In this document: positions 6,007-58,673 of the stretch, piece after piece
How the letters are laid out: each line of letters opens with the position of its first letter
Position numbering within the stretch: position 1 is the first letter of the stretch
Assembly: GCF_000003815.2 (NCBI RefSeq)
Contig: NC_049992.1
Location: forward strand, 1,363,724 to 1,427,723
DNA length: 64,000 nucleotides
Source: Branchiostoma floridae
Lineage: Eukaryota > Chordata > Leptocardii > Amphioxiformes > Branchiostomatidae
Direction of reading: 5' to 3'
The notes under the pieces: model-generated
What the model was told of the DNA's origin: nothing
Database searches by the model: none
What the model saw: the letters and a program-made list of their open reading frames with translations, nothing else
Program-made: the position numbers and the translations under genes

Positions 6007-9000
6007 GCCAATGTTTTCCGAGATGAATACAACCGAGCCTTGGACCGCACGGAGTCGGTTGAAGTTCGTCTGGAGGCCGCTAGGCGGCTCCTGGCCAAGC
6101 AGAATGACATCATCCAGCTTCAGGAGCAGGATCTGCAGGACATGGCGACGGAGCTGGAGGTCGCCAAGGAAACACGAAAACAGATGAAAGCCAGGTAACA
6201 CAACACTCAGTAGTTGTTTTGTATACGTGACTGTGTTTTTGATTGGCTTGTTCTGTTTCGTTTTTTTAAAAATGAATCTGAATTGTATAGCCGTTAAAAA
6301 CTTTCCCTTTTGCATAGCACATCAGCTTCACAGGCACGCAGCGCAACAGCAACAGGTTATCACTGAATGGTATAACTCTTGCACACTAGTTTATCTTCAA
6401 GCGTTCTTAAAGCTCTGTAGTGAGGGTGTTCCTACTGTACTTGCTGGCAATTACTAATAGCGGACTTACCCCCTTACTCTGTACCCGGCTGGAACGCCGT
6501 TGTCAAGGAGGCCCATCAAGCCGCCCGAGATGCTTTCCTTCTCTGGCGGCAGTTGGGCCGTCCTAGGCATGGAGCGGTCTGGAATATCATGCGTAAAACA
6601 AGGGCGAAATTTAAGCTGTTACTGAGGCAGTGTCGCCGCTCTGAGGCCCAGTCTAGAGCGGACGCGCTTGCCATGCATCTTCATCAGGGGGGTTGCAAGA
6701 GTTTTTGGAATGCTCTGCGTTCGCAAAACCGCTCCAAGCCAAATCTTCCCAACACGGTTGATGGTTACACGGGGGCTACAGAAATTGCCAATATGTGGAG
6801 AAACTACTACAGTTCCTTGTTTAATTCGGTTAATTCCGCTAATCACAAACCATCTGTTATGCATGCAATGGAATCTGATGTTAGCGATGTAACCACGGTA
6901 ACAGTAGGAGAGGTATGTGATGCTATCAATGACTTATCCAATGGGAAGGCTAGTGACGTGCAGGGCATTTCAGCTGAGCATCTTAAGAACGCCGGGCCCC
7001 AACTACCCGTTTTGCTTTCAATTTTAATTTCCTCTATGCTTAGACACGCCTATGTGCCACCTAGCATTCTGAACGTTGTACTTGTCCCTGTATTGAAGAA
7101 GCCCAGCTGTAATGCTTCGAACAAGGACAGTTATCGTCCGATTGCAATTGCCAGTCCCTTGTTAAAAGTCATCGAATCTGTACTATTGACATACCTTGAC
7201 GATTTCCTATGCTCCCCGAGCAACCAGTTCGGATTTAAGAAGAAACATGGAACCGATCTATGTATATTTGCCCTCAAAGAAATTATTCAGTATTATCGAC
7301 AAAGGGGCTCTCCTGTATTTGCATGTTTTCTGGACGCATCCAAAGCGTTTGACCGTGTAAACCACTGGACATTGTTTAAAAAACTTATGGATCGAGGGGT
7401 TCCGATGTACCTAGTTAGATTCCTGGTCGTGTGGTATAGTACGTTGTCATTCTGTGTCCGTTGGGGCCACACCCTCTCGGATACATTTACTGCTATGAAT
7501 GGTTTGCCTCAAGGCAGCATATTGTCACCAATCTTGTTCAATGTGTATGTATCCGATTTGAGTACCGAGCTACTGAGGTCTGGAGTCGGTTGCTATGTTG
7601 GGGACACCTTAGTCAACCACTTGATGTACGCGGATGACATTTGCCTCGTCTGTCCGTCTGTTAAAGCGTTGCAGAGACTGATTAGTATTTGTGAGCTATC
7701 TGGAGCGGATATTGACATGTTGTTTAATGAATCGAAAACACTATGTATGTACTTTCCGTGTCGCCGCTTCCGCATGAGTATGCCTTTGCCGCCGCTGATG
7801 CTGTACGGTACCGCCTTAAAGTATGTCTCCTCTGCCACTTATCTTGGGTATATAATTACCCCTGATCTTTCGGATGACGCAGCAATCCGAGCTCACGTCA
7901 GAGGCTTTTATTCTCGGGCAAATTCACTCCTCCGCCGGTTTCGTTACTGCTCAGCGGCGGTAAAAAGTGAGTTGTTCTCAGCGTATTGCTCCCCGATGTA
8001 TTGTGCCCAAATTTGGAGTAATTACAGCGTGAGTGCGATCTCCAAGCTACGAGTGGCTTACCACAGCGCAATGAAACTGCTCTTTTCTGTCGGCAGGCAT
8101 ACAAGCACTAGTTGGTTGTTTGTGAATAACCGGACCGACATGTTTGACGCAAGGCGTCGCAAGGTCACCTACTCATTTGTAACACGCCTGCTGTCGTCTG
8201 ACAATGATATAATAAGAGTGCTTGTACACTCGGACGGCTTTTGCCACAGCCCATTCTGGCGACATTATGTAAAGTATTTGTAAGTGTAGCTTTGCAAATC
8301 TTTGTTCTGTGTATGTTTTTATGGGCCATGGGCCTGATACAAATAAATAAATAAATGGTGTTCTGCTTCAGTGAGTTCTCGCTAATGATGTATGAACCTC
8401 GCCCAGCAAGAGGGGAAGAAACCTTTTTCTGCTTTAACTATTTTTAATTTAAAAGAGGTGAATGTGAATTAGGGCAAATTAAAACGTTTGTTTGTCATAG
8501 GGCGCAGGTGTAATGCAGTTTTCTAAAAGCACCATCATCGTTAAAACCACATTTGTCCCTGGTCGATTAAAGGACCATGATTGCTATCAACAGAAGACTT
8601 TTGTAGATATGTGTTTTTAACCATATTCTAATACTATGCTAATAAATTAGAACATATAATTAAAACATCTATCTATGCCTTCAGACTGGACGAGTCCAAC
8701 ACGAAGCTGGACCTGGCTAAGATAGACTAACATGTTCACCTTGCCCCTAGACTAGACGAGTCCAACACGAAGCTGGACCAGGCTAAGGTAGACTTTGAAG
8801 CAGGAATCGAGGAGTACCGGCAGGAGCAGGCGGCTCAGGCGGCGTTCGGCTTCATCGGCGCCATCTTCGGGATATTCATCGGCGTCATACAGGTAATTAG
8901 TTTTCTTATTGCACGATAGATAAGTCGTTTCATGGTTTAAAGGGCGTATGCGCGGCGAGGTGCCTTGTGGGTACCATGTAGCATTTTTTGACAGGTACTG

Positions 9001-11701
9001 TTTACAGCTTCGGGGCCTTCAACTTTGACACAAAACCCACAGTTCATTTCGCCGCGCATGTGTAGTTTAAACCGGCCAGCTTATCCATGCATGTTTTGTT
9101 AAAGTGGCGGCCAATCATCAACACACTGCCCTACAGATTGGACTAGGCGATGTTGTTGGAGGGGTGAGCACAGAGTGAACTAACGGTAACATACTGCCTT
9201 ACAGATTGGACTAGGCGATGTTGTAGGAGGGGTGCAGTACAGAGTGAACTAACATTAACGCACTGCCGTACAGATTAGACTAGGCGATGTTGTAGGAGGG
9301 GTGCAGTACAGAGTGAACTAACATTAACGCACTGCCGTACAGATTGGACTAGGCGATGTTGTAGGAGGGGTGCAGTACAGAGTGAACTAACGTTAACACC
9401 CTGCCCCACAGATTGGACTAGGCGATGTTGTAGGAGGGGTGCAGTACAGAGTGAACTAACGTTAACACCCTGCCCCACAGATTGGACTAGGCGATGTTGT
9501 AGGAGGGGTGTCCAATATCGTGGGCAGCACCATTGATATCGCCGACACCATCACGGACCTAACCATTCTCATCCGGGACCTGGAGGAGTACAACAGCATC
9601 GCGGATGACGCAATAGAAAGTGCCGCAGGTGCCGTATCTGGGGTAAGTGTTCACTCTCACATTGACGTTAGACTGTATGTTTCCATTCTCTGTTTTAAAT
9701 TTACTCATCAACAAACGGATGAAGTCTGATTCACGGATGATGCATTCGAAGAACTGAAATGATATGTGGAGAGACGGGATATTTCTCTGTCCTTGGTGCT
9801 GATCTTCTTTCTCACAAAATGTCTGATTGAAGACTACATTACTTGACCATAGAGAAAATTCTTAGTAATTACAATGTCTCTCGTGGCGCAATAGTTGTCC
9901 CAGAATGACTATGAAGACTACAGTCCGTCTATGAAAAAAAATCCTGTATAATACTAACGTTTATTAACAGAATGACTATGAAGGCTACATCCTGACCATG
10001 GAGGATGGAGAGGTCCTGTAGACTCCTAACGTAACGTTCATTAACGTTTATTAATAGAATGACTATGAAGGCTACATCCTGACCATGGAGGATGGAGAGG
10101 TCCTGTAGACCCCTAACGTAACGTTCATTAACGTTTATCAACAGAATGACTATGAAGGCTACATCCTGACCATGGAGGATGGAGAGGTCCTGTAGACTCC
10201 TAACGTAACGTTCATTAACGTTTATCAACAGAATGACTATGAAGGCTACATCCTGACCATGGAGGATGGAGAGGTCCTGTAGACTCCTAACGTAACGTTC
10301 ATTAACGTTTATCAACAGAATGACTATGAAGGCTACATCTTGTCCATGGAGCGGGTTGTGGAGCTGCACATCAAAGTTGTGGAGTGGGACAACCTGCAGA
10401 ACGTGGCCTCCGCTCTGCTGTGACTATAAAATAACGCTGTATAATATAACCCCAAAGTGTTTACCCCAGAATGACTACGAAGGCTATATCCTGTCCATGG
10501 AGCGGGTTGTGGAGCTGGCTATAGAAGCAGATGCTGTAATATGAAAAGTGAAGTTGACAATGGTACCTTGATTTCTCCCAGACTGACTATGAAGGCTACA
10601 TTCAGACTATAAAGAAAGCCTGAGTGTATAATTCTAACCTGTTTACCCCAGAATGACTACGAAGGCTATATCCTGACCATGGAGCGGGTTGTTGAGCTGC
10701 ACATCAAAGTTGTGGAGTGGGACAACCTGCAGAACGTGGCCTCTGCCCTGCTGGGTCACGGAGAGGTCACCAAGATCAGCGGGTCACGTGAGTACCGCAA
10801 GATCATGTCCGAGACCTCCAACTGGGGCAAGGCGCTCACGGAGACCACCATCGCCGAGGCTGAGCTGCGCGTGCAGTATGAAAGGTGGCGCTTCTGAACT
10901 ACTACTAATGTTGCTACTTCTTCTGTCAGTCAGTCTATGCAGGCTATGACTCTGCGAAAAGGAACTAAACGACAATGGATACTACAATACAAAAATGTAC
11001 AAATTGAATACGGCGCTTCTAAACACGTTTATGGATACTTGATAACCCAGGGTAACGCATATCTCTGTTTCCGCAGCCCTTGGACCACACAGTTATGTAA
11101 TTGATTAAACACAGGCGTGTCAATCGGATGCTTTATCGTGATCCTACTTTATGCCGTATGTTCTTTGTGGCTTTCATAGCATAAATGTCATCCTGGTTAG
11201 CTTCCCACGATCGCCACGAAGACAATGGATTACAATAACATTTATATTTGGCTTGTTCTTGTTTTCTTAAATTCACGATGTATTCATGTATTATATTATT
11301 CGTATCCCAACCCGACCGGTACTTAACGAAACACCCCTGCATTTCCAGCCGGAAGCGCTGGCTGGCCGCGGAGAGGCGTGAGAAGGAGCGGATAGAGGCG
11401 CAGATCGGGCTGGACGAGAGCCGGAGGGAGATCAGCCTGGAGCTGACGTCAGCTATAGGGCTCACGGCCTTCCACGTACGTAACGTACTAACTAACTAAG
11501 CAACTAAGTAATAACTAACTATCTGGGACGAGAGCCGGAGGGAGATCAGCCTGGAGCTGACGTCTGCTATAGGGCTCACGGCCTTCCATGCACGTAATGT
11601 GCTAACTAAAGACATGGCTGCTGTGCAGCAGACACACCCTGCAATATTCGATAACATCAATGTAGCAAGTTGCAGGACACACAGAGCTGGAAGGACTGGT
11701 C

Positions 11702-11757
<56 letters not shown>

Positions 11758-14700
11758 TGTGTCTGGTAACAATAAAAAGATGGAGGTAAATTTTACTGAT
11801 CTTCTTACCAATTCCATCTGTCCAGAACGAGCCTAATATTCTGGTTCGCTATCACTACAATTACTGCAAACATATCATACTGTCTCATGATGTCAACTTT
11901 TTGGTACATTTTCGCGGGTACATTTCCCCCACCGCAGGTGAAGCTGGAGCTGAACAACATCCTGCTGGACTATTGCAACTCCTACTCTACTNNNNNNNNN
12001 NNNNNNNNNNNNNNNNNNNNNNNNNNNNNNNNNNNNNNNNNNNNNNNNNNNNNNNNNNNNNNNNNNNNNNNNNNNNNNNNNNNNNNNNNNNNNNNNNNNN
12101 NNNNNNNNNNNNNNNNNNNNNNNNNNNNNNNNNNNNNNNNNNNNNNNNNNNNNNNNNNNNNNNNNNNNNNNNNNNNNNNNNNNNNNNNNNNNNNNNNNNN
12201 NNNNNNNNNNNNNNNNNNNNNNNNNNNNNNNNNNNNNNNNNNNNNNNNNNNNCTGCTGGACAAGGTGTGGCAACTAGCTAGGTCTTACTGGTAGCATAAC
12301 CCTAACCCTAGCTAACCCTAACCCTAACCCAATTAGCTAGGTCTTACTGGTAGCATAGGCATAGCCCTAACCCTAGCTAACCCTAACCCTAACCCAACTA
12401 GCTAAGTCTTACTGGTAGCATAACCCTAACCCTAGCTAACCCTAACCCTAACCCAACTAGCTAGGTCTTACTGGTAGCATAACCCTAACCCTAGCTTACC
12501 CTAACCCTAACCCAACTAGCTAGGTCTTACTGGTAGCATAACCCTAACCCTAGCTAACCCTAACCCTAACCCAACTAGCTAGGTCTTACTGGTAGCATAG
12601 CCCTAACCCTAGCTAACCCTAACCCTAACCCAACTAGCTAGGTCTTACTGGTAGCATAGCCCTAACCCTAGCTAACCCTAACCCTAACCCTAACCCTAAC
12701 CCTAACCTACCTACAAAACCCAGCCTGGGAGACGACCTGGTCACTCTGCTGGACAAGGTCTGGCAAATAGGTTCTACCAGTAGCATAATAGATATACATG
12801 TAGATATAGAGACATAGAGAGACAAGGTGGCAAAGGGAGAAAGAAAGAGAAAGAAAGAGTGAGCGCGTAGGAGTGAGACAGAAAACGAGAGAAAAGCAGA
12901 TAGGGAGCGTCGGAGAGAGAAACAAATGAAGCAATCGATAAATAAACAGCAAAAGAGGGACAGAAAGAAATGTAGAGAGAACCAGAGAGAAAAACGAAGA
13001 TAGATAGGGAGAGAGTGTGTAAAAGGAGAGAGAGGAATCCAACAAATGGTTTAGCGGAAGAATATGATATGATATAAATTCCTCATTTAGTACTACGACA
13101 CCTCTGCTACGTTTGTTAAAGTCTTTGATAAAGAGGCTGCCTTAAAGAAACTTTCCCTTGTCTTTTCAGGTGAGCAACGCGGCCCAAGACGGCCTGCAGA
13201 ACTTGGCCAGCTTCAACCCGCCTCCTCAACCCTTCAACAACCTCAACATCCGCATCACTGACTCGGTAAGGGCTTACTAGTAGCCACCCTAACTGTAGCC
13301 CCAAACCCAACCCCTAACCCTAACCCGCCTCCTCAGCCCTTTAACAACCTCAACATCAACTCGACAAGGTCCTCGCAACCTTTCCTAAAATAGTATAAAT
13401 GATCAAATGAATGTATTGATACCATATGTGAATGAGTCAATGAATGAATAAATGAATTAAAAGATAAATGAATAGACACGCTTTCTCCCAACACATCCGC
13501 TCCTGGAATGAATGGCTAGATTTTCCTTTTTGCACTTCTTGGGCAGTATACACACATATATACCTGATAAGTTTTAAAAGAATTCAAACCTGTTGTGTAT
13601 TCATCGTCATTTTATCTTTCGGTGACTTGAAAAACGTTTGCTGCCCCCCTCACCAGCCGACGGCGTGCGTGAACGCCACGGAGTGCCCGGTGTCGCTCCT
13701 GAAGGAGACCAAGAGGCTGCACGTGGAGATCGCAATAAACAAACAAACAAATAAACAAACAAACAAACAAACAAATGTTTTCTGTCCCCCAGCCGACAGC
13801 GTGCGTGAACGCCACGGAGTGCCCGGTGTCGCTGCTGAAGGAAACCCGGAGGCTGCACGTGGAGATCCGGCACGATCACCCCAACTTTCTCAGCTGGGAC
13901 CGCGTCAGGATAGAGAAGATCAGGGTCTTCCTCATCGGTAGGTGATTTTACTTTCAGTTCAAATTTACATCTATAAGTCTTAGGTCCCAACTGCACCGGT
14001 GCCCGTCAGAGATATCGCCCGGCGGGCTCCGAAGCCACAAATATGTCCCGGTGGATTTCCGGATATGGAGGGTTCCGGTTTTGCTCGGGTCACAGGTGTT
14101 ATGATCGCAGGCTTGATCTGGGTCAAAAGTACAAACGGAAAATACAACACACATGCAACTCTGAATATTTTTACGGAGTGTCTGATTTTTGACTGAGAAT
14201 TCCGTCTTGTTTCCACCCCAGGCGCCACCCTCCCGAGTAACCGGATGCGGGTGTCCATTTCCACATCCGGGGAGTTCTTTGACCGTTACCGTTCCATCGA
14301 GCAGGACTTCGTGAGCGTGCCTCTGCGGAGGGGGTTTGAGTACAACCCGTCAAGCAGTAAGTAATCCATTTGTGTCATATCTGTCATGTGATCTGCATTT
14401 GAAGCTTTGCCTCATCTGAGCATGTTGTCGCCAGACCTTTGAACGGGCTATATTGAGAGTGACCCACGGTCCTCCTAGTTAGGTGTACTCCCGGGGAAGT
14501 GTCTCACTAGGCGAGGAGGAGGTCGTCTCTCGTCGGCAGAGTCTCTCTTCTTCCACCTATCGATCCTGAAGGTGAACTCCGAGGCCTTGAACTGTCTAAA
14601 GTGTTACCTGACTTAACGAAATTTCTCGTTTTTTTCCCAGATGGCGTCATCGTCGACGGAAACATCCATGACGATTTCCATGGTTACTACTCGCTGACCA

Positions 14701-15641
14701 CGCCCTTCACGACCTGGGTGATTGACGTGTCGACTGGACTGAACACCGGGCTGGACCTGAGCCGGCTCAGCCGTGTGGAGCTCCACATGTGGGGGAGTTT
14801 GGTGAGCGGGAGCAGGGACGCACAGGTTTGTTTGTTTGTTTGTTTGTTTGCTGGGCTGGACCTGAGCCGACTGAGTCGTGTGGAGCTGCACAAGTGGGGG
14901 AGTTTGGTGAGCGGCAGCAGGGACGGACAGGTGTGTTTGTTTGTTTGTTTGCTTGCCGGGCTGGACCTGAGCAAGCTGAGCCCTGTGGAGCTGCACATGT
15001 GGGGGAGTCTGGTGAGCGGGAGGATGGGCGGACAGGTGTGTTTGTTTGTTTGTTTGTTTTTCGAACTGGATCTGAGCCGGCTGAGCCGTGTGGAGCGCCA
15101 CAAATTGGTGGGTCTGGTCAGCGGTAGCAGGGACGGACAGGTTTGTTTGTTTGTCTGTTTGATTGTTTGTTTGACATAAGCAATAAAATTTTTAGGCGTA
15201 ACATCCATTGTGTAAAGTAAGTACAAGATGTGTAAAATTGGACTAAGACTTTGTCCACTCACACCGGGAAGGACTGTCTTCGATAAGTGTGGTGGGTTCT
15301 TTAACATGCTCGAGGTGTGGCTTTCCTCAAACAAGGGACCAACTTTACTTCCAATCTTAGAGGGCATCCCTCATTTGAATTCAACCTTAGGTTTTCACCT
15401 AAATCAAGTGCCTTTCCCAGGGGCACAAATTTCGAACCCAGATCCTTTATACGTCGTTTAAGGTAAGACATCTAGGTGATAAGGTATGCCAAATAATAGT
15501 TGCTCAACCAAAACCATATCCAGTTGCTTGCTAATGGGTAATATGATGCACGAGATTTTTTATATTCTGAGTTAGCAACCCTGACCATAAACTTACCTTG
15601 CCGCCAAACAGGTCCTGGACAACATGGTCATCGACCTGTAG
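6007..15641 (+). CDS. Gene A: unrecognised multi-exon protein, helical/hydrophobic N-terminal part and beta-rich C-terminal part (5' end missing)
   Basis: Exons chosen by GT-AG sites and matching phases: 6007-6194, 8751-8892, 9481-9642, 10652-10884, 11349-11475, 11938 into the gap at 11992, 13170-13265, 13793-13937, 14222-14356, 14641-14825, 15612-15641 (stop TAG). No start codon is found. The exon 6 end is hidden in the gap. Exon 1 is a charged coiled coil (RRLLAKQNDIIQLQEQDLQD). Exons 2-3 carry a hydrophobic, glycine-rich stretch (AAFGFIGAIFGIFIGVIQIG). Exons 4-5 are helical and charged. Exons 7-11 are less charged and probably beta-rich (VRIEKIRVFLIG, FTTWVIDVSTGL), with a Cys pair in exon 8 (ACVNATEC). 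Helices with a hydrophobic hairpin followed by a beta domain is reminiscent of alpha-helical pore-forming proteins, but this is only an architectural impression. A LINE sits in intron 1 and eight exons have partial copies beside them. Confidence 0.72.
6455..8357 (+). mobile_element. 5'-truncated non-LTR retrotransposon (CR1/L2-like) with open reverse transcriptase frame
   Basis: The frame is open from about 6455 to the stop at 8283. The translated region begins in the linker before the reverse transcriptase (WNAVVKEAHQAARDAFLLWR). It continues through FLDASKAFDRVNH, GLPQGSILSPILFNVYVSDL, the catalytic YADD at 7627-7638, and the thumb/C-terminal region (YCSPMYCAQIWSNYS). No stop or frameshift interrupts it. 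The 5' apurinic endonuclease domain is absent, so the insertion is truncated. The 3' end is a short AAAT-type tail (AAATAAATAAATAAAT) near 8342-8357. It lies in intron 1 of gene A, in the same orientation. Clade assignment is uncertain. Confidence 0.9.
6553..8283 (+). CDS. LINE-encoded reverse transcriptase (partial ORF2)
   Basis: The reverse transcriptase fingers and palm are complete. Recognisable blocks are SYRPIAIASPLLKVIES, QFGFKKKHGTD, a DASKAFD motif with the first catalytic Asp, GLPQGS, and YADD with the other two Asp residues. A C-terminal region follows (LRVAYHSAMKLLF). The codon before 6553 is also open, and there is no ATG at 6553 (TTG), so this is not a true start; the frame runs upstream to about 6455. 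The intact frame suggests a recent insertion. Mobility would have required an intact copy elsewhere, since the endonuclease is missing. Confidence 0.9.
   Translation: MGRPRHGAVWNIMRKTRAKFKLLLRQCRRSEAQSRADALAMHLHQGGCKSFWNALRSQNRSKPNLPNTVDGYTGATEIANMWRNYYSSLFNSVNSANHKPSVMHAMESDVSDVTTVTVGEVCDAINDLSNGKASDVQGISAEHLKNAGPQLPVLLSILISSMLRHAYVPPSILNVVLVPVLKKPSCNASNKDSYRPIAIASPLLKVIESVLLTYLDDFLCSPSNQFGFKKKHGTDLCIFALKEIIQYYRQRGSPVFACFLDASKAFDRVNHWTLFKKLMDRGVPMYLVRFLVVWYSTLSFCVRWGHTLSDTFTAMNGLPQGSILSPILFNVYVSDLSTELLRSGVGCYVGDTLVNHLMYADDICLVCPSVKALQRLISICELSGADIDMLFNESKTLCMYFPCRRFRMSMPLPPLMLYGTALKYVSSATYLGYIITPDLSDDAAIRAHVRGFYSRANSLLRRFRYCSAAVKSELFSAYCSPMYCAQIWSNYSVSAISKLRVAYHSAMKLLFSVGRHTSTSWLFVNNRTDMFDARRRKVTYSFVTRLLSSDNDIIRVLVHSDGFCHSPFWRHYVKYL
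8665..8730 (+). repeat. Truncated acceptor-side copy of gene A exon 2
   Basis: 66 bp upstream of the true exon 2 (8751) an acceptor CTTCAG is followed at 8685 by a near copy of the exon's first 45 bases. It then diverges into an in-frame TAA. Splicing to this acceptor would truncate the protein. Confidence 0.85.
9131..9480 (+). repeat. Tandem 69 bp acceptor-exon array before gene A exon 3
   Basis: Copies of acceptor plus the first 30 bases of exon 3 begin at 9137, 9205, 9274, 9343 and 9412; the full exon begins at 9481. Spacing is 68, 69, 69, 69 and 69 bp. Each copy ends in CAGTACAGAGTGAACTAA or a close variant, giving an in-frame stop. The array is regular and highly similar, so it is young or homogenised. 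Confidence 0.95.
9960..10651 (+). repeat. Tandem acceptor-exon array before gene A exon 4
   Basis: Four 87 bp units begin at 9971, 10058, 10145 and 10232. Each has an acceptor, the exon start (AATGACTATGAAGGCTACAT) and a TAG stop after GAGGTCCTG. Three less regular copies follow at 10319, 10470 and 10582, before the full exon at 10652. The 10319 copy carries more than 100 bases of exon sequence before TGA. Confidence 0.95.
11349..11608 (+). repeat. Gene A exon 5 and a donor-side partial copy
   Basis: Exon 5 is 11349-11475, donor CAC|GTACGTAAC. At 11525-11599 the exon's last 70 or so bases recur with a few changes (GGACGAGAGCCGGAGGGAGA onward). The donor in the copy has changed to GCACGTAAT, so it is probably inactive. 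Confidence 0.85.
11611..11756. repeat. Interspersed repeat ending in a TA microsatellite
   Basis: The block with GACACACAGAGCTGGAAGGA and CTGGTCGCCATATA recurs at about 63075-63170 (GACAGAGCTGGAGGGGCTGG, then TCACTATATG). It is followed here by about 25 TA dinucleotides (11705-11754). Confidence 0.7.
11992..12252. other. Assembly gap (261 N)
   Basis: Run of N inside gene A. It starts within exon 6 (11938 onward) and ends in sequence similar to the exon 6 end (GCTGGACAAGGTGTGGCAA). The true exon 6 end and donor are therefore hidden. It adjoins a tandem array, which may be why assembly failed. Confidence 0.98.
12253..12710 (+). repeat. Donor-side array with telomere-type CCCTAA repeats, intron 6 of gene A
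   Basis: About seven units of roughly 58-66 bp. Each begins with CTAGCTAGGTCTTACTGG TAGCAT-like sequence, resembling the exon 6 end and donor, and continues with AACCCTAACCCTAGC and further CCCTAA hexamers. At 12705-12771 a longer exon-like copy follows (CCCAGCCTGGGAGACGACCT to GGCAAATAG). The hexamer is the vertebrate-type telomere repeat, here internal to a gene. Confidence 0.9.
12785..13045. repeat. Purine-rich low-complexity tract
   Basis: Long GA/GAGAGA-rich interval within intron 6 of gene A. No exon is seen before the acceptor at 13169. Confidence 0.8.
13285..13385 (+). repeat. Partial copy of gene A exon 7 fused to CCCTAA-like repeats
   Basis: After exon 7 (13170-13265), CCCCTAACCCTAACCC at about 13311 runs directly into CGCCTCCTCAGCCCTTTAAC, a copy of the exon's middle. 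It then diverges near AACTCGACAAGG. Confidence 0.8.
13640..13792 (+). repeat. Acceptor-side copy of gene A exon 8 joined to a CAAA microsatellite
   Basis: Acceptor CTCACCAG at 13656 is followed by a near-identical copy of the first 77 or so bases of exon 8. It breaks at GTGGAGATC into AAAC tandem repeats (13737-13776). The full exon starts at 13793. Spacing is 136 bp, not divisible by three. Confidence 0.92.
14826..15170 (+). repeat. Donor-side 105 bp array after gene A exon 10, in frame
   Basis: Exon 10 ends at 14825 (GCACAG|GTTTGT). Three further copies of its last 70 or so bases follow, with CTGGACCTGA-type starts at 14856, 14961 and 15066 (14751 in the exon), exactly 105 bp apart. They are linked by TTTG repeats, and each ends in CAG followed by GT. 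The reading frame stays open through all copies to 15179, so use of a later donor would add one to three 35-residue repeats. Confidence 0.93.
15225..15460 (-). mobile_element. tRNA-derived SINE, minus-strand fragment
   Basis: Reverse-complement sequence corresponds to the body of the intact SINE at 46745-47234. Shared blocks include ACACCGGGAAGGAC, GTGTGGTGGGTTCTT and GTGCCTTTCCCAGGGGCACA. It lies in the last intron of gene A. Confidence 0.75.
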
Positions 15642-15722
15642 GGCAGTGACCTGGTGACGTCACGCAGCGTCGTCTTACCAATGGTGGAAGAGGACTTCAC
15701 CATGCTTTATGTGATAGGAGGA

Positions 15723-15728
15723 AATAAA
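15723..15728 (+). terminator. Probable polyadenylation signal of gene A
   Basis: AATAAA 82 bp after the stop codon at 15639-15641, followed by a T/G-rich tract (CGCCTTGTTTTTGTTGTTC). Confidence 0.7.
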
Positions 15729-16104
15729 TCATTCCAAACAGGCATTTATTCGCCTTGTTTTTGTTGTTCTATCATACAGTTTATACTAACTGCACAAAGA
15801 TGCTTTTATCTAAGAGTGGCATAGTAGCAAAGCTGGCTATGAAGTATAGCTGGCCAAAGGGAGTCATCAGCCACTCCGGTAGCCAAACACACTCCTAAGT
15901 CGGCTTCACTCCTCTGCCTGCTTTGAATACTATCTTATGTTACCGTAGGATCTGGTTGCTTAATCTTAACATTGATTTTATGTATGACTTCCGCGCATGC
16001 GCATGCATTAACTTTCACCAAATTTCCAGTTTTTACACCATCGTCTGAAACAGGTTAACGTGCCTCCTGTAACAGCAAATGTAGAAGTTATCATTTTACA
16101 TAGA

Positions 16105-40833: not shown

Positions 40834-40875
<42 letters not shown>

Positions 40876-40962: not shown

Positions 40963-40964
<2 letters not shown>

Positions 40965-42045: not shown

Positions 42046-42049
42046 AATG

Positions 42050-43979: not shown

Positions 43980-43980
43980 T

Positions 43981-48328: not shown

Positions 48329-51300
48329 ATGGAAGCGAACGGGACCGCAGAGCCCGGGAACAGCTCCGGTGATGCTGACTGGGGCGATCTGGGCGGGCAG
48401 GAGAGCATGTGGGGAACCGTCGCTCTGGTCGTGCTGCTGTCAATCATTGTGGCCATCACGGTGGTGAGTTCATCTTTCCATGTCTTCTGTGTTAAGATTA
48501 GGGGTTTATTATCGTCTACGTAAAAACAAATTTTACGATATCGCATTAGTGGGCCAAAGGGAGTAGGGAAAATGTCACTGACTTCGAAGGTTCCCCAAAA
48601 AATTATTGGTTTCGAATGTACGTATTCACGATTTCATGAGGCACACTTATTTCATATTGATATCTTCACCTTTAATACCCCTGAGTGCGCTAGCCAGTTT
48701 ATCACAATCTCCCTAACACTATAAAGAATGACTCGAAGATGGTCTACTTCTTTAAGACAGGGGTTTTTATTACCCACGGAGCGGCTAGAAGAAGCATGAT
48801 GCTACGAGATGCATGTTTACGATGTAGCAATATCAGTCGGTCATTATCACCGTCTGTCTCACAAGGAATGTATAGGGTTACCAGTAGAAGGTCTTTCTTT
48901 TTGAGACGTAGGTTTTGTATTACGTAGAATGGCTTGAAGACAGCCAAGCCTACACGTATTGGAACCATATTTACGTTACAGCCCCAGCTGTCGGTATTAC
49001 AGTCTGCCGTCCTGGGAGCATTACGAATGACTTGGAGAAGGCTAATTGACGTTTTATTACGCCTGGGAAACATATTTTGGGTCTAGCAAAGATAGATCAA
49101 AAGAAGTGGGGAAAATATCGATTTTTGAAGGTAAAATTTATCACATTCGAATCGGGGCGCCAAAGATGTGAATATTCGCCAGTTATGCTACAGTCACATT
49201 TCAAAACCGGGGCCCGGCCGGACTATTTTAGAAAACGAAAAAAAATGCCATGACTCTCCTTTCTACGTTTTGTGCATTTTATTGTCTTTTATATAATTTT
49301 TTCGTCCCCGGTCGGGCCCCAGTTTGGAACTTTCACTTCACTGTGACCTAGGCATGAATGAGGTGCTCCTATATTCTTTCTACGACGTCTTCTCCTTTAA
49401 TACTCTTGAGTGCACTATCCATAAGAATTCCTTGAAGATCATATTTCTTCTTTAAGACGTAGGTTTTTATTACCCACTTGGTATACTTGCTATTAAAAGC
49501 CCGACGCTACGAGAAACATATTTACGATACATCCAGTCCGTTTTTACTGCCGTCTGTGTCACCAGGAATATGAGAAATGACCCGGAGAAGGTTTTTCTTT
49601 TTAAGATCTGCCCATTGGGTAGAAAGGCTCGAAGACGGTTTATATTACACCAACGGGAGCCATATTTATTGCAGAGCCACAGTAACCGGGTTTTATTACC
49701 GTTCCTCTCACTGGGAGCATTACCAATAACTAGAGGAAGGTGAGGTTGTTACATGAAGGGGAAACATACTTACAGTATAGTCGCAGCGGTGGGCCAGAAA
49801 GATGACAGACGTGTCACATTTTTTATGGTTTTACATACGTTTATTAGGAACCATGACGACTTGAAGATGCTTACTGACCAGTTGATAAGTACGCTTAAGG
49901 CCCCTTAAAACGGAAAAGCGAACGCTGAGCGACGGTTAAATGACAAATTAGATTCGTGTCACGCTATTCTATGGTCGGAATCAAAAGACACAAAACGTGA
50001 ACAAAAATCTGTTCTTAATCTAAAAATACGTTGAGCAATGTGTGTCATCCTCCGTTACTCAGCAGTCATAGCCTGTAGTGGAAAGGCACTTTTACCTCAT
50101 TCGGAAACAGAATTTCAGTCGGAAGGAAGCAGTTTCTGAGCGTAACCACCAATCGTACAACGATTATCTTCAAGAAAGGGGATGGTTTGAAGAGTTTAGC
50201 GTACGCGTATTCCCGTCTGGACCGCAGCACGATGATTGATTGTCCTGTTTATGTAGTACTCATCTCGCGTTACTGTAGCCCTCTGGTCAGTAATGCGTCA
50301 TCAGGGCCTCTAAAACAAAGTGCATCGGCCTTTTTGGTCCTAGGACGCAGCTACAGAATGCGCAGGACATTTTATGGAACGATTTTCAGAAAAGGCTTCC
50401 ATTGACATGTTTTGATTTAAAGAGCCTGTATGCGTCTGCAAGTGTGTGGATGGATAGCAGAGCTCTAGAAGGCCTGGGTGGATTGTATTGAAATTTAGTA
50501 TGTATTGATGACACCTTGAAGCGCTTTTGGCCTTGATTTTGGCCACCCTAGCGGCTTGTTAAGGTACTGCAGCGGAAATTCTGGCTGTGATATTTCGATT
50601 TTGAAGTTATGAATTAATTTATCAAAACAAATTGTGCTGTTCTACAAACAAATCCAAAGGCTTTTTTGTCACTACGTAACAAGACCTGAAAGTCATTTTG
50701 AGATGTGACCCGAAGGCCACTCCAAGGGTACAGGTCACATTGTAAATGTAACAGCATCTCTCCTCCCTAGATCAGAAACATCACGATTGAGACCAGGTAA
50801 GTGTGAGGATGTAACTGGCCCAGTTGGCGAAGAAGGGGTTACAAAGACTGCTCAGGAAATTCCCTACCACATTTAAGCCGGAATGGTTTGATCCACACAC
50901 CGGGAAGGTCCCCTACTCTTTTCCATGTTTTGTTCATGGTGTTGTTCAGTAGTCTCCAGACACTGTCTAACGTCTTGTTCCTTCAGGTGGGAAACATCCT
51001 GGTGCTGCTGGCGGTAGCGACACACCGCAGTCTCCAGACACTGTCTAACGTCTTGGCCCTTGTCTTGTTCCTTCAGGTGGGAAACATCCTGGTGCTGCTG
51101 GCGGTAGCGACACACCGCAGTCTCCAGACACTGTCTAACGTCTTGACCCTTGTCTTGTTCCTTCAGGTGGGAAACATCCTGGTTCTCCTGGCGGTAGCGA
51201 CACACCGCAGTCTCCAGACGCTGTCTAACGTCTTCCTGGTGTCGCTCTGCGTCTCTGATCTTCTGGTAAGTGGACGTTTTGTTTGTTTTCAGATAATGTG

Positions 51301-54300
51301 TACACCAACTCTGGACGTAACACACTCGTTTATACAGCAGATACAAGCTGTATAAGCTGTGGCCGTTTGATTCACTCACACCAAGACGGTTCCCTACTGA
51401 TTCCGATAAGTGTGGTGTTTTTGTTACATACTTGAGACGGGGCTCTCCAGATTCAGGGAACCTTTGGCTCTAAGTCCTATCCGAGAGGATGTAAGAGGTA
51501 CGCTGTACGGAGAGTAAATCTCCACCGCCACCCCCACGACTACCCCCCCCCCCGTGTAGACTATTTGACATTCAGTAGTTTCTAGCGAGGACCAATAAAA
51601 TAGCTGCTGGCAGGTCACTGACATTGGGCGATAACTGCGAGCTTTTCGCACCCTTGCTTATCATGCAAATGCCGTGAACTCAAATCAAGCAGACATTATG
51701 TTCGTCATTTTGCACCGTGCGGGAGCTTTACTTGCTCACAAACAACTCTATATATCAGTTTAAAAAGTTTACTCTGGTGATCAAAAGGTGACGGGACTGT
51801 AGCGAGTTTTCCTGCATTAAACTTTTTGAAATGACGGCCCTACAGTTTATTTCCGTCTCTTTTATTACGCGCTTTGTCACTTTAGTTCTATTTTTTCGTC
51901 CACTTGTACCTCAAGGCTTCGTGGCGTAGTTGACTAGTGATTGGATTTGTAACTTTTGGACCAGAGTTCGAACCTGGCGTGGTGCAATTTTAAAAAAAGT
52001 TTTCTTTGTTGAATATTTTACTTTTTATCACTATACGGTCGTACTTTTGTAACTGAAATGTTTCGCTTCTTGTCAGTCACCCAAAATGTTGTCACCCCCA
52101 AAAGTTGTGACTTTTAGTACGTGTCACCCTATGTTTCAGTGCTATTTCCTTGCATTCACAAAAATAAAAACAGTACGTAGTTCTACAACTTACAACTTGT
52201 ACCTTGTAACAAGGTAAAGAGACGTCTCTGATGACCCGGTGTACAACGGCTGTAGTAAGTTGTCAAATATATGCGTTATGCACTCAAGTCGTGTTGTTTG
52301 CTGATTATTCAGTCCGTCCTTCTATTCTATATAACCAGCATTCAAAGGGACCAGCTCATAAAAATACATGCTGCAAACTAAAGGAAGCCCCACAAAGATG
52401 TCCTTTGTAATGTATTGACGGTATTTAACAGCTAGTAATCGACGGACAATAGGTGTGAAACATTCCTCCCTGGCCCTCGCGTGCAACCGGTCTGGCGTTA
52501 ATTGGTTACTCTGCATTTGAAAGAGCGGACTTCATGGGCGTAGCCCTCGCTAGAAATCTACTGAATGGGAATCAGNNNNNNNNNNNNNNNNNNNNNNNNN
52601 NNNNNNNNNNNNNNNNNNNNNNNNNNNNNNNNNNNNNNNNNNNNNNNNNNNNNNNNNNNNNNNNNNNNNNNNNNNTTTAACATCACTCTTGTTAGGCCCC
52701 CCCCCCCGACACACTTACACGCGTCGCCGTTTTTTTAACATCACTCTTGTTCCTGTTACCCCAGGTGATAGCCCCTTCCGTTGCCATCTCCCCCACCAGC
52801 CCCCCCCCCCCCACTCCAAACACACACACACGTCACCGGTGTATTTTTTTTTATATTACTCTTTTTTTCCCAGGTTGGCCCCCATGCCATTGCCATCCAT
52901 GAGAGTGGGTCTTCTCACCCAGACACACATACACGTCGCCGATGTGTTTTTTCAACAACACTTTTGTTTACCCCAAGTGGGTGCCCTTCTGATGCCCCCA
53001 GCCATTGGAGTCACCTTGTACGGAGAGTGGATCTTCTCAACCACCCCCCTTCCCCACACATACACACGCTTGTCGCCGGTGCGTTTTTTAAACATCACTC
53101 TTGTTTTCGTTACCCAAGGTCGGCGCCCTTGTGATGCCCCCTGCCATTGGAGTCACCCTGTACGGAGAGTGGATATTCTCCCCGGGATTCTGCGCGGTCT
53201 GGGTCTCGTTTGACGTCATGCTGTGCAGCGCCTCCATCCTCAACCTCTGCGTCATCAGTCTAGACAGGTCAGAGGTCAATTTATTTTGTTATCGTTATCA
53301 CCGTTGAGAAACTATAAAGGACGTTTGATTAAGGTCTTGAAAGAAAAAAAGAGAACGTCCTTGCCGAAATACAGTATAGTTACCCTATGTATTCCCAAGA
53401 AACGGTCTTCTCAACTTAAAGATAACTTGAGCGTGCTTGGTTATCTGAAATGATTGTATCCTTGTCTGATAGTTTCAATGATTCATGCTCCCCGGTCACC
53501 TTGGGATGGTCGCTTGTAGATCAGGCTAAAACAGAAAGAGCTAAAGTCTTACGCATGCTTGTGTCCTCCTTACTTATAAACCACATTTACTCCAATTCAT
53601 GTATTGCAGAGACATTCATCAAAATGTCTTGCCCAGTAAAAAAGAAAAAAAAAACCGAGCCGTCCCAACCACTGCTTCAAGCATAACACCTTTAACGGCT
53701 TACACAGGATAGTCTCTCTACAATCCCATTTCCTGCCTTTCTCCAATGACTTAACATGTCGGGGCAACCTTGTTTACCGCCAACTAAACCTTGTATGGAG
53801 AAAAACAGGATGTGATCCATTCAGTGCGGGTGAAGTCATTGAAAATCAGGTCATTACCCTTCCCAGACGCCCCCAAATGTCACTAGTACCGATGTTTGTG
53901 TCTAACGAAGTGCAAAACAGTATTATTTTGCTTCAAGAATTCAAAGGCTTTTATTATCAGTACAGTTCTAAAAGTGCTCACTCATTCATAACGTGGATTA
54001 TTATTTTAAACGGCTCTACGTGTCTCATAATTTTACTTTGACTACGATTCATGTTCCTCGGTCATGTTGGAATTGTCACTGGTAGATGATTCTTAACAAG
54101 AAAGAGCTTGAGCTTTGTAAACACTTCCCTTCCATTCATCCATTGAAACATTCAACCCAAAGTTTCGTCCAGTTAAGTCAAAGCCCTTCGTCACCTATTG
54201 AGTCAATCAAACGTGCCGATGCTCAATGACTTTGGTAGAAAAGATGCTGATACAGTGAGCGTATGGTAGTTCGGTACCTAGAAGTGATCAATACATGGCT

Positions 54301-57300
54301 TTGCACTGATAAAACTCGTTTAAAAAGTAATATTTCCCAGTTGTGTCCGCTACTGTTTCAAGCATAACACTAGTGGTGCGTACCTAAACTTATATTCAGG
54401 TTCAGGTCCGGATTCAAGTCCAGCAGTTCAGGTTCAGGTTCGGACTTTAAGTCCGGACCTGAACCCATCATTGCATATTATGTGCACTAGAAATTTTATT
54501 TGAAGGGGAGGGGGGATGGTGCATATAAAATTGCCTGTTATGAATTGAAATGCAATGTGAAAAATACATGCAAATTATATACAGCCAGTGTAAACATGAA
54601 AAGTTTTTTTGTCTCAGTGCAAATTTCACTGTCTATGGAAGGTTTTAAATGGTTTAGAACAAAAAAAGGGAATATAAGTGACAGATTGCTTTTTGCAAGT
54701 CCGGACTTGGCTCCGGACATTCAGGGTTTTTTTTGGACTTGGACCTAAACATTTCAGGTCCAATTCCAAGTCCGGGCTTTAGGTACGCACCACTACATAA
54801 CACTTTTCTCGGCTTACACAGTTCTAAGATCTTTTCTACAATCCGATAAGAACTTGACACCAGGGCCCTACAGTGTCAGGGCAACGTTGTTTACTAGGAA
54901 CGAAGCCTTGTGGAAGAATAGAACCGTGAATGAAGTCACTCCAAATCAGTTTATCGCCTTCCCCAGACAAATCCAATACGATTAGAGAACTCTGCTTCTA
55001 ACGATGAACTCACCGAATAACAAAAACATCGGGGCGACATTCATAACAGTGCTGATGGGCTTGGGTTACATTTTGTATTGTCGCTACTAAAAGGTTACTG
55101 CTTTAGTGTATTAAGTTTGTCGAGTTGTCAAAGAGAAAAAGACAACTGCCCAGTTCTTTAAAGATTACGTGTCTTAATTCTCATATCTAACTGAGACATC
55201 CTGGGTTGTTCGATGTGACATAACCAACTGCTGTCTCGCCGCGTGTCTGCGGAAAAAAATGTTTGTTACGCTGAAAGGCGGCTATGTTAAACCGGCTATA
55301 TGGATATATAAGCTGGTGTCTTAAACAGAAGGGCGGTTATGATATATAGATACAGATACAGAAGCTGGTGTGTTACGTCGAAGGGCGGTTATACCGGCTA
55401 TATAGATACAGATACAGAAGCTGGTGTGTTACGCTGAAGGGTGGTTGTACCGATTGTACACATACAAGCTGGTGTTACGCTGAAGGGCGGTTATACAGGC
55501 CACACAGACACAGAAAATGTTATGTTCCACAGGGCGGTAACTTTTTGTATGGGATGAAATAAAGCCTGTATGTTGAAAAGTGTCCCCATCTCTGTTACAG
55601 ATACATCCAGATCACGCGGCCCCTCCAACACGACACCTACATGACGAACACGATACAGATACAGAAATTTATGTGTTGCACCGAGTGGACCCTTTTTGTA
55701 TGGAATAAAATGAAACTTAAATTCCCCTCTCTAACACAGATATATCCAGATCACGCGGCCCCTCCAACACGACACGTACCTAATGGTTTCCCCTCTCTAA
55801 CACAGATATATCCAGATCACGCGGCCCCTCCAACACGACACCTACATGACCAACACGCGGGCCGGAGTGCTGATCGCCCTGGCCTGGCTGCTCGCCATCT
55901 TTGCCTCCTTCCCGCCCATCACGCTGGGCTGGCACGAGCACCCCGGACACCCGAGTCTCAGCGACCTGACCGCGCTGTCCCCGCGGCCGCAGTGCGTCTT
56001 CGACCCGAGCAAGACGTACGCGCTCACCGCTTCCATCGTCACCTTCTATATACCACTGGCAGCCATCCTCTTCACCTACAGGTGTGTTTGTTTGTTTGTT
56101 TTGTCACCTTCTACATCCCTCTCGCCGCCATCCTCTTTATGTACAGATTTGTTAACGCTATACAATATGGTAAACGTATGGTATAGGTATAATTCGGGGT
56201 TATAGGTTTCGCGTGTGTGTGTTTGTCTGTGTGCATTTCCCCAATGATAATTTAAAGATGGATTGTGATGATATTTGGCACGTGAGTAGGTCTTGAGAAG
56301 ACGAAGCTCAAGGTAATCTAAGACCCTCTGGTGGCCGATCTTGGTAATGCAGCAGAGCTTCCGGTTTTCGTTTTTGCTTGTTATGGTTTCGTCATTACTA
56401 TCATCAACATGAGAATTATTATCATGATGATTCTCCCAGCCGGATCTACAAAGAGGCGAAGTCCCAGGCGACGCGCGTGGCCTCCCTGAATAAGCAGTTC
56501 CGCACGGAGTCCAGACGGAAGAACGGGAAGCGTGGCAGCCAGCCCAGCGGGCCCTCCTCCACCAAAGGTGCTTCATTATTATTGCCATGTCACATTATTT
56601 ACTATTGCCATTGTAGTAAAAGCAGGTTGTCTCCACATATGAAGTAATTCTTGATTTGCATTGTTTGTACGACCTAGTATAGTCAAACCTGTATTAGGGG
56701 CCACCTCTACAGAGGGGCCACCTGTCCATAGTGGCCACTTTTTGTCGGTCCCTTGGGTATTTTATCTACAAGTTGCCACCTCTATACAGAGGCCACCTGT
56801 CTATAGTGGCCAAATTTGTCCGGTCCCTTGAGTGGCCGCTATAGACAGGTTTGACTGTACGTAGAAACTTAGTGCGTAAAAAACTTCATGCTCTTGGGAA
56901 AGGCGCTTTTCTCACTCCACCCAGGTGAAAAATGGCTATATGACTTCGGTTGGGGAGGTAAAGTGTGGTGAAAGGAGAGAGTAGACCTTCCAATACTATA
57001 CCCTAGACAAAGTAGATAACAACCCGCTGGCCAATGGTCATGGCCGTAAAAGGGTTATCAATGAATGAATGAATGAATGGAGACCTTTATTGTACATAGT
57101 ACCCACTGGGTTAAGTACAGGTCGCAACAAAAGATACATGAAATATATGCAATGTCATCCAATACAAGAATCGTATCTTACTACGTGAATATGAGACTAC
57201 CTTTGCCTTTTCCCTCCTTGTCCGCAGCTATCCGCACGCTGGGAGTGATCCTCGGAGCCTTCATGGTCACCTGTCTAAAGTGGCCACACTTCTCCAGTCC

Positions 57301-58673
57301 CTTGAGTGGCCGCTATAGACAGTTTTGACTGTATCTTTACCCTTTTCTCTCCGTCCACAGCTATCCGCACGTTGGGAGTGATCCTGGGAGCCTTCATGGT
57401 CACCTGTCTAAAGTGGCCACACTTCTCCAGTCCCTTGAGTGGCCGGTATAGACAGTTTTGGCTGTGCCTTAACCCTTTTTTCTTCGTCTACAGCCATCCG
57501 CACGCTGGGAGTGATCATCGGAGCCTTCATGGCCACCTGTCTAAAGTGGCCACACTTCCCCAGTCCCTTGAGTGGCCGCTATAGACAGTTTTGCCTGTAC
57601 CTTGACCCTTTTCCTCTGTCCACAGCTATCCGCACGCTGGGAGTGATCCTGGGCGCCTTCATCGTCACCTGTCTAAACTGGCCACACTTCTCCAGTCCCT
57701 TGAATGGCCGCTATAGACAGTTTTGACTGTATCTTTACCTTTTTGTGTCTGTCCACAGCCATCCGCACGCTGGGAGTGATCCTCGGAGCCTTCATGGTCA
57801 CGTGGCTGCCTTTCTTCATCTCGAATATCGTGCGGCCCTTCTGCGGCTGCGTGCCGGGGGAGGTGTTCGAAGGTGCGTTGGTTTTTATATATATCTATAT
57901 ATATATAATGCGGGACAGGAGACCTGGCGCATCCCCGTCTTGTAATTAGCCAGCGAAAGGGTATGTCACCCCGTAAGGGGCGGTATCACCCCGTCGTGTG
58001 TAAACATGTGCGAACATGTGTGATCACGTCGACCGATGATGATGATGATCTATATAGTGCGTAGAAGTAGTTGATTTCGAGCTGTGCTTCGCTATAAGCG
58101 AGATCAGAATTAGCGCTCACCCTCTTGAAGTAGAAAGAGAGCGTATTAGGGGTTTACTAGTGTGCAAAAGAATTTGTAGATACTGTACATCTAAAGCAGT
58201 GGAAGACGAAAAACTTTTTTATTTCCAAGTGTTTGTTCCACAAAACTGAAAAACCTTCTCTTCGACAGATTTCCTCTGACGTCACTGACGAGGGACAGGG
58301 ACTGCGATCTGCAACGTCTGACCATTTTTGAAGTCATATCCAGTTGCTTGATGAACTACTATTTGGTGTAAAATTATTTTTTATCCTGTATTTCACACCT
58401 TCAGGTCTGACGTGGCTGGGCTGGTGCAACTCCACCATGAATCCCGTCATCTACCCGCTCTTCATCAAGGACTTCAAGCAGGTCTTCCGCAAGTACCTGC
58501 CGTGCTGTCGCCAGCCGCCAGGGGGCAACGTCATGGGCATCCACGGGGTCCCGTTCCCGCTGCCGGGCCCGTCCACGTCCAACGAGAACGGCAACATCGA
58601 AATCAGCACTGTAGCCGGGACCGTTCCCGCCAACAACCGCGTCGATTCGCCGGTGGATGAACAGGCGAACTAA
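48329..58673 (+). CDS. HTR6-like: Gene C: 5-HT6-like serotonin receptor (class A GPCR), seven exons
   Basis: Exons 48329-48463, 51167-51265, 53119-53267, 55806-56081, 56440-56567, 57759-57872 and 58405-58673 have matching phases and give 389 residues. The N-terminus has two N-glycosylation sites (NGT, NSS). TM1 contains GNILVLLAV and TM2 LCVSDLL. TM3 has the amine-binding Asp in FDVMLCSASILNLCVISLDR, and the intron splits the Arg codon of DRY. TM4 includes WLLAIF; ECL2 has Cys (QCVFD). TM5 is TASIVTFYIPLAAILF with the Ala-Ser-x-x-Thr pattern of 5-HT6. TM6 is VTWLPFFISNIV and TM7 is WCNSTMNPVIYPLF, with a CC pair in the tail. The set FDVM-CSASILNLC, GW(H)E, TWLPFF-NIV and TWLG-CNSTMNP is distinctive of 5-HT6, which signals through Gs in vertebrates. 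ICL3 is short. Five of seven exons have partial flanking copies. Confidence 0.92.
48655..49790. repeat. Diverged tandem duplication in intron 1 of gene C
   Basis: Copy 1 (about 48655-49100) and copy 2 (about 49380-49790) share ordered blocks: CTTTAATAC, GAGTGC, CTTCTTTAAGAC followed by TTTTTATTACCCAC, ACGCTACGAGA, GCCGTCTGT, and GGGAGCATTAC. A MITE (49193-49346) lies between them. Each copy also shows an internal periodicity of roughly 140 bp. Confidence 0.8.
49193..49346. mobile_element. MITE with GGGGCCCGGCCGG inverted ends, copy 2
   Basis: TCACATTTCAAAACCGGGGC at the left pairs with GGGCCCCAGTTTGG...TGTGA at the right. Same family as 17151-17335 and 60993-61110. Confidence 0.85.
50680..50950 (-). 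mobile_element. SINE, minus-strand copy in intron 1 of gene C
   Basis: GACCCGAAGGCCACTCCAAG, ATCACGATTGAGACCAGG and GGAATGGTTTGATCCACACA match the reverse complement of the body and 3' region of the SINE at 46745-47234. Confidence 0.75.
50950..51166 (+). repeat. In-frame 90 bp acceptor-exon array before gene C exon 2
   Basis: Acceptor CCTTCAG precedes copies of the first 66 or so bases of exon 2 at 50987 and 51077; the true exon begins at 51167, spacing exactly 90 bp. The reading frame is open through both copies in the exon's own phase. Splicing to the first acceptor would insert 60 residues, two repeats of a TM1-like segment ending LVLFLQ. Confidence 0.95.
51350..51480 (-). mobile_element. 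SINE fragment, minus strand
   Basis: TTTGATTCACTCACACC, CCCTACTGATTCCGATAAGT and GTGTGGT match the minus-strand SINE body seen at 15235-15300. Confidence 0.65.
51905..51985 (+). repeat. tRNA-like sequence (probable SINE head)
   Basis: TGGCGTAGTTGACTAG and AGTTCGAACCTGGCG resemble A and B boxes. The anticodon arm does not fold convincingly, so it is not called as a tRNA gene. Confidence 0.4.
52576..52675. other. Assembly gap (100 N)
   Basis: Run of exactly 100 N immediately before the exon 3 copy array, so the array may be longer than shown. Confidence 0.98.
52680..53118 (+). repeat. Diverged acceptor-exon array before gene C exon 3
   Basis: Acceptors precede decayed copies of the exon start at 52765, 52874 and 52978; the true exon begins at 53119. 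Units share a CACACAC...CGTCGCCG...TTTAACATCACTCTTGTT intronic part. The 52978 copy retains about 60 bases of exon sequence (GCCATTGGAGTCACC, TACGGAGAGTGGAT). Confidence 0.85.
53460..55010. repeat. Segmental duplication in intron 3 of gene C, second copy split by a MITE
   Basis: Copy 1 (about 53460-53910) and copy 2 (about 54035-54370 plus 54796-55010) share ATTCATG-TCC-CGGTCA, AAAGAGCT, TTCAAGCATAACAC, CGGCTTACACAG, CAGGGCAAC-TTGTTTAC, GAAGTCA-T and CTTCCC(C)AGAC. A hAT-like MITE interrupts copy 2 at CATAACAC. Confidence 0.85.
54371..54795. mobile_element. hAT-like MITE with exact 8 bp target duplication, copy 2
   Basis: 425 bp. Terminal inverted repeats TAGTGGTGCGTACCTAAA. Flanked by CATAACAC at 54363-54370 and 54796-54803. 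The uninterrupted site (single CATAACAC) is present in the duplicate segment at 53681-53688. The interior is rich in AGGTCC/GGACCT words like the element at 45807. Confidence 0.95.
55255..55515. repeat. Minisatellite of about 55-65 bp units
   Basis: Four to five units of AAGCTGGTGTGTTACGCTGA, AGGGCGGTTATACCGGC, TATATAGATACAGATACAG. A solo unit lies at 41465-41525. Confidence 0.9.
55590..55805 (+). repeat. Acceptor-exon copies before gene C exon 4
   Basis: Acceptor plus the first 38-45 bases of exon 4 occurs at 55601 and 55740; the true exon begins at 55806 (spacing 139 and 66 bp). The 55740 copy reaches an in-frame TAA. The 55601 copy loses the frame on entering later copies. Confidence 0.93.
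56082..56150 (+). repeat. Donor-side copy of gene C exon 4 after a TTTG tract
   Basis: After the true donor (ACAG|GTGTGT at 56081) and a TTTG run, GTCACCTTCTACATCCCTCT and CTTTATGTACAG repeat the last 45 bases of exon 4 with substitutions. The copy's donor has become ATTTGT, so it is inactive. Confidence 0.88.
56680..56860. mobile_element. MITE with AGTCAAACCTGT inverted ends
   Basis: AGTCAAACCTGTATTAGGGG at the left pairs with ACAGGTTTGACTGT at the right. The interior repeats GGCCACCTGTC-ATAGTGGCC and GGTCCCTTG. Its right end is the source of the intronic part of the exon 6 array at 57200-57758. Confidence 0.88.
56885..57060 (+). mobile_element. SINE fragment, plus strand
   Basis: CTTGGGAAAGGCGCTTTTCT and CTCCACCCAGGTGAAAAATG match the SINE core and body; it is followed by ATGA repeats. 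Confidence 0.7.
57200..57758 (+). repeat. Chimeric 133 bp acceptor-exon-MITE array before gene C exon 6
   Basis: Copies start at 57228, 57361, 57494 and 57626; the true exon starts at 57759 (spacing 133, 133, 132, 133). Each has about 45 bases of exon 6 (ATCCGCAC to TTCATGGTCAC). It then switches to the right end of the MITE at 56680 (CTGTCTAAAGTGGCCACACT, CCTTGAGTGGCCGCTATAGA, CAGTTTTGACTGTA), followed by a pyrimidine tract and acceptor. Confidence 0.95.

Follow-up and report, generated by a model that had tools for sequence, protein, structure and literature searches.

Tandem duplications spanning exon ends are crowded into three neighbouring genes of the lancelet Branchiostoma floridae

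Amphioxus genes are known to carry 'mirages', tandem repeats that span exon boundaries, described at both acceptor and donor ends in the globin genes BflGb6 and BflGb9 (PMC3087553). In the passages of that paper, mirage units range from 10-72 bp (Adh3) to ~160 bp (globins), many keep the AG or GT, haplotypes of the globin repeats differ in copy number, and a model of intron gain is proposed. In lancelet PGBD5, imperfect tandem repeats of 60 and 108 bp lie over the 5' and 3' splice sites, and Adh and TnC are referenced in the same passage as further cases (PMC3902484). The amylases of B. floridae have copy-specific introns, and the passages that describe them make no mention of arrays (PMC3096672). 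Among the matches listed in our literature search, mostly open papers, mirages appeared only in PMC3087553 and PMC3902484, and no genome-wide mirage survey or frequency control was found.

Here we analyse a 64,000-nucleotide window of B. floridae (C14:1363724-1427723; all positions below count from its first letter), with searches of a 513 Mb genome in 431 contigs. Three genes on the + strand, A, B and C, were modelled by eye from sequence alone and their frame and AG/GT ends were checked; the in-frame reading and the AG/GT ends hold in all three models. Gene A, of an unnamed family, comprises 11 or more exons; six pieces of it, compared with Pfam, gave nothing above the cut-off and two weak sub-threshold matches. 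Its exon A6 abuts an N gap, so the end of A6 is provisional. The product of gene B is a leucine-rich-repeat protein (Pfam match to PF13855), and gene C is a 7TM receptor (Pfam match to PF00001) with seven exons from start to stop. The matches listed in the genome search included no second haplotype of either gene A or gene C. Two further open frames were judged by eye: one of 619 codons with a YADD-type motif in intron 1 of gene A (6424-8280, + strand), putatively the reverse transcriptase of a non-LTR element, and one at 188-979 (- strand) with a putative fibrinogen-related domain, which has many close relatives at 0.9-1.9 Mb of the same contig.

Under a strict rule, a boundary was counted as spanned if a copy lay at most 1.5 kb away, reached at least 42 bits and included 8 bp or more both before and after the boundary. 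Ten of the 37 splice boundaries of the three genes are spanned by this rule, eight of them acceptors (A3, A4, A8, B2, C2, C3, C4, C6) and two donors (A5, A10), as is one of the three stop codons (C7). A looser search, which scans the intron side only and takes in 39 boundaries (36 splice, 3 stop), found a copy at 15/39, with at least five aligned bases on both sides at 13/39 and, among splice boundaries, at 12/36; with it, copies also appear at the acceptor of A2 and the donor of C4, along with a weak one of the A6 donor beside the N gap. The 13 arrays that reach an exon end contact one boundary each, and C4 has both an acceptor array and, by the looser search, a donor-side copy. Comparison of the window with itself (at least 42 bits, at most 1.5 kb) gave 78 direct local pairs and 3 inverted ones, whereas five Markov-resampled windows gave 0 local pairs each, so the arrays hold up against randomised sequence.

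The arrays are real. It is highly improbable that they are an assembly artefact, with alleles or reads of a heterozygous genome stacked in tandem: the window does contain N gaps, one of them adjoining A6, and one mirage is said to have been misassembled in the draft (PMC3087553), but the window arrays hold up to seven non-identical copies, a number that two stacked haplotypes could not yield. For the published cases, globin trace data with two haplotypes (PMC3087553) and the re-sequencing of PGBD5 (PMC3902484), as given in the passages of those papers, also speak against an artefact.

In gene A (all coordinates of arrays and copies are on the + strand), exon 2 (8751-8892) has an acceptor-side copy at an offset of 66 bp (8683..8794), whose 46 aligned bp (93% identity) comprise 44 exonic bases and, on the intron side, the retained AG alone. 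The acceptor array of exon 3 (9481-9642) occupies 9116..9510 and is built of 5.7 copies of a 69-bp unit, and that of exon 4 (10652-10884) occupies 9895..10753, with six upstream copies mainly of 87-bp units; its seven ends, the real one and six copies, are the highest number in the window. Exon 5 (11349-11475) is followed 114 bp on by a donor-side copy (11412..11609) of 94% identity in which GT has become GC. The weak donor-side copy of exon 6 lies in 12254..12788, adjoining the N gap, and aligns at 12746-12788 over 12 exon and 31 intron bases with 40 bits; a separate, telomere-like intron minisatellite of CCCTAA-rich 59-bp units fills 12271-12690, or 12271-12707 in its wider delimitation. At exon 7 the copy (13215..13357) matches 34/36 exon bases and 0 intron bases and ends before the donor. 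Exon 8 (13793-13937) has an acceptor-side copy at an offset of 136-141 bp (13632..13867; 87%), and exon 10 (14641-14825) has a donor array of four copies of a 105-bp unit (14746..15165) whose frame is open throughout. By eye, a (GTTT)n microsatellite is present at several junctions: A10, A8 and the donor of C4.

The acceptor array of gene B exon 2 (22266-22516) has two upstream copies of a ~170-bp unit (21811..22312). Separately, 138 bp (46 codons) of exon 3 of this gene are duplicated in tandem, in frame and wholly within the exon (24246-24519). In gene C, the acceptor arrays are found at exon 2 (51167-51265; array 50951..51234, 2.9 copies of a 90-bp unit, frame open), exon 3 (53119-53267; degenerate array 52697..53180, 77-82% identity), exon 4 (55806-56081; 55504..55857, two copies upstream, 90-98%) and exon 6 (57759-57872; 57198..57807, four upstream copies of a 133-bp unit). 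Sequence related to the intron part of the exon 6 unit recurs upstream in the same intron (56700-56860). The donor-side copy of C4 lies 65 bp on (56038..56153; 80%, GT to AT) and misses the strict eight-base rule by one base. The last exon, C7, carries a duplication that spans the stop codon, with two copies downstream (58599..59035).

The original prediction had listed 14 exons with copies of their own ends, in three unrelated genes with unrelated repeat units. That the genes are unrelated, and the repeat units too, is confirmed; ten of the exons are clear, A2 and A6 are weaker, and A7 and C7 differ from the description. Its acceptor-side list stands under the strict rule apart from A2; on its donor-side list, A5 and A10 pass the strict rule, C4 is recovered by the looser search only and A6 is weak, whereas A7 is purely exonic and C7 has no splice site at the boundary it spans.

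These arrays are of a kind already known, the amphioxus mirages, which the original prediction had named correctly and which are in print for 5' and 3' boundaries (PMC3087553, PMC3902484); what is new is the density here and the control. As described for the globin mirages, a window unit comprises an exon end, the splice site and adjoining intron in several copies, and, as described for PGBD5, the repeats overlap both 5' and 3' splice sites. The published mirages, in the passages concerned, lie in single genes, whereas here three neighbouring genes, 10-13 splice boundaries and a stop-codon array are involved; the PGBD5 passage, likewise, treats one gene and contains no frequency test, unlike the three genes and control presented here. 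Rogers, and Gao and Lynch, reportedly modelled intron creation by internal tandem duplication, the new intron arising between two copies of an exonic stretch. The window arrays share with that model an intragenic tandem duplication that involves splice-site motifs, but their unit already includes intron, and each array touches one intron end instead of flanking both. They nevertheless show the raw material that has been proposed for new introns.

Did the density reflect a process that acts on exon boundaries in general, as had been claimed? As a control we used 29 CCT and P450 genes from other loci (8 chaperonin and 20 P450 stretches, a subset of the loci matched), modelled with a purpose-built spliced profile aligner; these are two conserved families that may not represent the genome. 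Five of 228 control boundaries (2%) are spanned, a count that leaves out exons shorter than 60 bp and, for P450, those ending before profile position 90. The five matches sit in three genes (clustering p 0.05), and one of them, at L017, with a 49-bp 'intron' and a very poor donor, may be a model error. Compared with 10/37 in the window, the difference is strong (Fisher p 1.6e-6), and relative to these 29 genes the density is indeed exceptional, although the window was selected for the feature, so that the contrast shows that genes differ and not how frequent such genes are. Adding 27 further boundaries (L037-L039 and L041-L045, with 0 matches in a by-eye tally entered by hand; L040 was excluded from unselected counts) gives 5/255 (Fisher p 6e-7).

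Control arrays lie where chance would put them. When the arrays are moved to random positions without a change in length, 3.9 of 14 are expected to contact a boundary, and 5/14 actually do (p 0.34; exon limit 40 bp, 244 boundaries), and intron interiors are covered at 84/1623 sites in CCT genes and 127/1566 in P450 genes, exon interiors at 3/2281. In the other sampled genes mirages are rare, and they favour exon edges no more than other parts of the introns. In the window, the same randomisation, applied to arrays inside genes with the wholly exonic B3 array excluded, finds 11/17 in contact with a splice boundary versus 4.1 expected, at a p value of ~3e-4 that carries the selection of the window. 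By position, 10/37 boundaries are covered, compared with 331/1125 sites inside the introns of these three genes (126/303 in A, 30/100 in B, 175/722 in C); exon interiors are covered at 45/371 sites and sites outside genes at 241/3936. Cover by position shows no boundary excess because the arrays extend into the introns, and the window excess therefore rests on the array-level test. Array density is 17 per 18.6 kb of intron in the window genes versus 14 per 63.5 kb in the control. Thus the clustering goes by gene or locus, and a boundary-general process is not supported, either by the control genes, where boundaries show no excess over intron interiors, or by position in the window. Since the sampled control arrays sit at chance positions, the claim is narrowed, and the question becomes why a few genes gather so many.

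We considered a regional tandem-repeat hotspot as the whole answer and rejected it. In 4-kb bins, local pairs take up 23-36% of the five bins that hold genes A and C, 13% of the gene B bin and 0-15% of the other ten (the eleven bins including gene B average ~8%), and 30 further stretches have 0-14%, with a mean of ~4%. The low cover off genes A and C means that any enrichment of the surroundings is mild. Repeat cover was also computed for fibrinogen-like loci on the window's contig (L002-L008).

The reading that we favour, and consider reasonably probable, is that the arrays are neutral, mirage-type tandem duplications at exon ends that are tolerated there, in a gene- or locus-level excess and with no general attraction to splice sites. 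Tandem duplications of ~65-175 bp per unit would have straddled an exon end, some expanding to several copies, probably through ordinary replication slippage, end-joining repair or unequal exchange, and the crowding in A, B and C would be an excess of young duplications at the level of the gene or locus. The C7 array fits this reading, as it lies at a stop codon, where splicing has no role. Random placement leaves two things unexplained, the 11/17 boundary contacts and the centring of units on the boundary (p 0.036; exploratory, 12 units entered by hand). Both would follow more readily if a mutational process targeted exon boundaries in a subset of genes, for example through breaks linked to transcription or splicing, or at edges of base composition, and set off bursts of duplication. 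That all three unrelated neighbours are hit, while other bins have low cover, also points this way, as does L040, a receptor on a different contig, one exon of which has copies both upstream and downstream. Yet the CCT/P450 genes, the positional cover in the window and the C7 array all count against such targeting, and the window was selected for the feature, as L040 was for its overlapping matches; we regard it as unlikely.

The repeat units are ~65-175 bp long and usually include 30-80 exon bases; one A4 copy includes 102, the maximum. Aligned to the real end, 38 copies match it at 1322/1448 exon positions and 1327/1457 non-exon positions; subtracting the A6 rows, most of which belong to the separate minisatellite, leaves 1310/1436 and 938/1056. 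The copies appear to drift without sign of constraint, exon and intron parts being about equally diverged; constraint on the copies was accordingly rejected on these local alignments. Protection of the frame by unit length was likewise not supported: 7/12 units are multiples of three (p 0.066; counts entered by hand), and 8/17 with outside cases added (p 0.17).

An AG is retained in 21/21 acceptor copies with an aligned site; the donor copies have GC at A5, GT at A10 (twice) and A6, and AT at C4. Scored with a simple home-made weight matrix of splice-site frequencies, decoy acceptors are higher than the real site in 8 cases, equal in 3 and lower in 10, and at C6 all four outscore it. The arrays are in this sense natural splicing tests, with near-identical acceptors before one exon, some outscoring the real site, from which the cell must choose the one joined to the exon body. 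We then took the best donor within 260 bp downstream of each decoy and before the real exon. For 16/21 decoys it scores at most 3.4; the weakest real donor, at 4.4, is about matched for 2/21, both at A4, and 3/21 (9137, 21933, 52765) have a better one. An exon extended from the decoy acceptor meets an in-frame stop in 18/21 cases. Of the other three, the C2 extension (90 bp) is open, and the remaining two, one at A8 and one at C4, come from frame-shifted copies. Open frames also run through the donor extensions of A10 (105 and 315 bp), and since the A10 and C2 arrays are open and in frame, they could be translated.

On these scores, the want of a good downstream donor for most decoys would fit exon definition. 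Under the neutral reading, the exon body and the partner site would remain with one copy, which exon definition would select; an array supplies one kind of splice site only, so half-exons would go unrecognised and be tolerated, and the copies would afterwards diverge without constraint. The decoys at 9137, 21933 and 52765, which have a fair donor, and the two at A4 with donors near the weakest real one run against this tolerance, and the donor of the real exon itself is a further potential partner for a decoy. The arrays are most likely young and neutral.

Mirages might instead mark, or create, recently gained introns, as the passages on the globins propose (PMC3087553). Only one relative of gene A is among the matches listed (C14:10.90 Mb; 47% identity in the best-aligned stretch), and it has none of the gene A introns at aa 110, 164, 241.7 and 489. 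The nearest listed paralog of gene C (C14:5.58 Mb, 67%) is uninterrupted at C's intron sites aa 219.7, 262.3 and 300.3; it carries one intron at 78 and another at 127.7, and the model of its first exon is poor. Neither paralog shows a local repeat pair of at least 38 bits. In three more distant relatives of gene C (45%, 40%, 43%) the receptor runs without interruption for most of its length, which favours gain in gene C, while for gene A a loss on the paralog's side is no less likely than a gain. But paralog-absent introns are not clearly richer in arrays, at 5/7 versus 5/8 of the shared ones (A2 and the C4 donor counted, A6 and C intron 1 excluded), six other intron-bearing receptor loci among the seven examined further have 0/11 boundaries spanned (by eye), no array contacts both ends of an intron, and the paralogs may have lost introns. 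Young introns as the whole answer were rejected on these grounds, and we find the intron-gain account doubtful, more so than boundary targeting. Extra introns and arrays coincide in A and C, not as a rule.

The seventh receptor locus, L040 (C12:6637900-6639300, minus strand; L040:1-1401), was chosen because its matches overlapped in the match table. Its related receptor exon has two acceptor-side copies upstream and one donor-side copy downstream that keeps the GT, with ends placed by eye. Together with the window, it raises the tentative and rather unlikely prospect that some lancelet genes undergo tandem-duplication bursts aimed at exon ends, even both ends of one exon, in genes intron-richer than their nearest paralogs. 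If so, burst genes would be living cases of intron turnover, with decoy splice sites that emerge, spread and then decay. Among the other receptors, L045 has weaker intron pairs, one of which (45 bits) ends at the acceptor and leaves the exon untouched, and L041:1-440 and L043:829-1165 (minus read) hold intron tandem arrays of ~124-133 bp that lie near an exon without contacting it.
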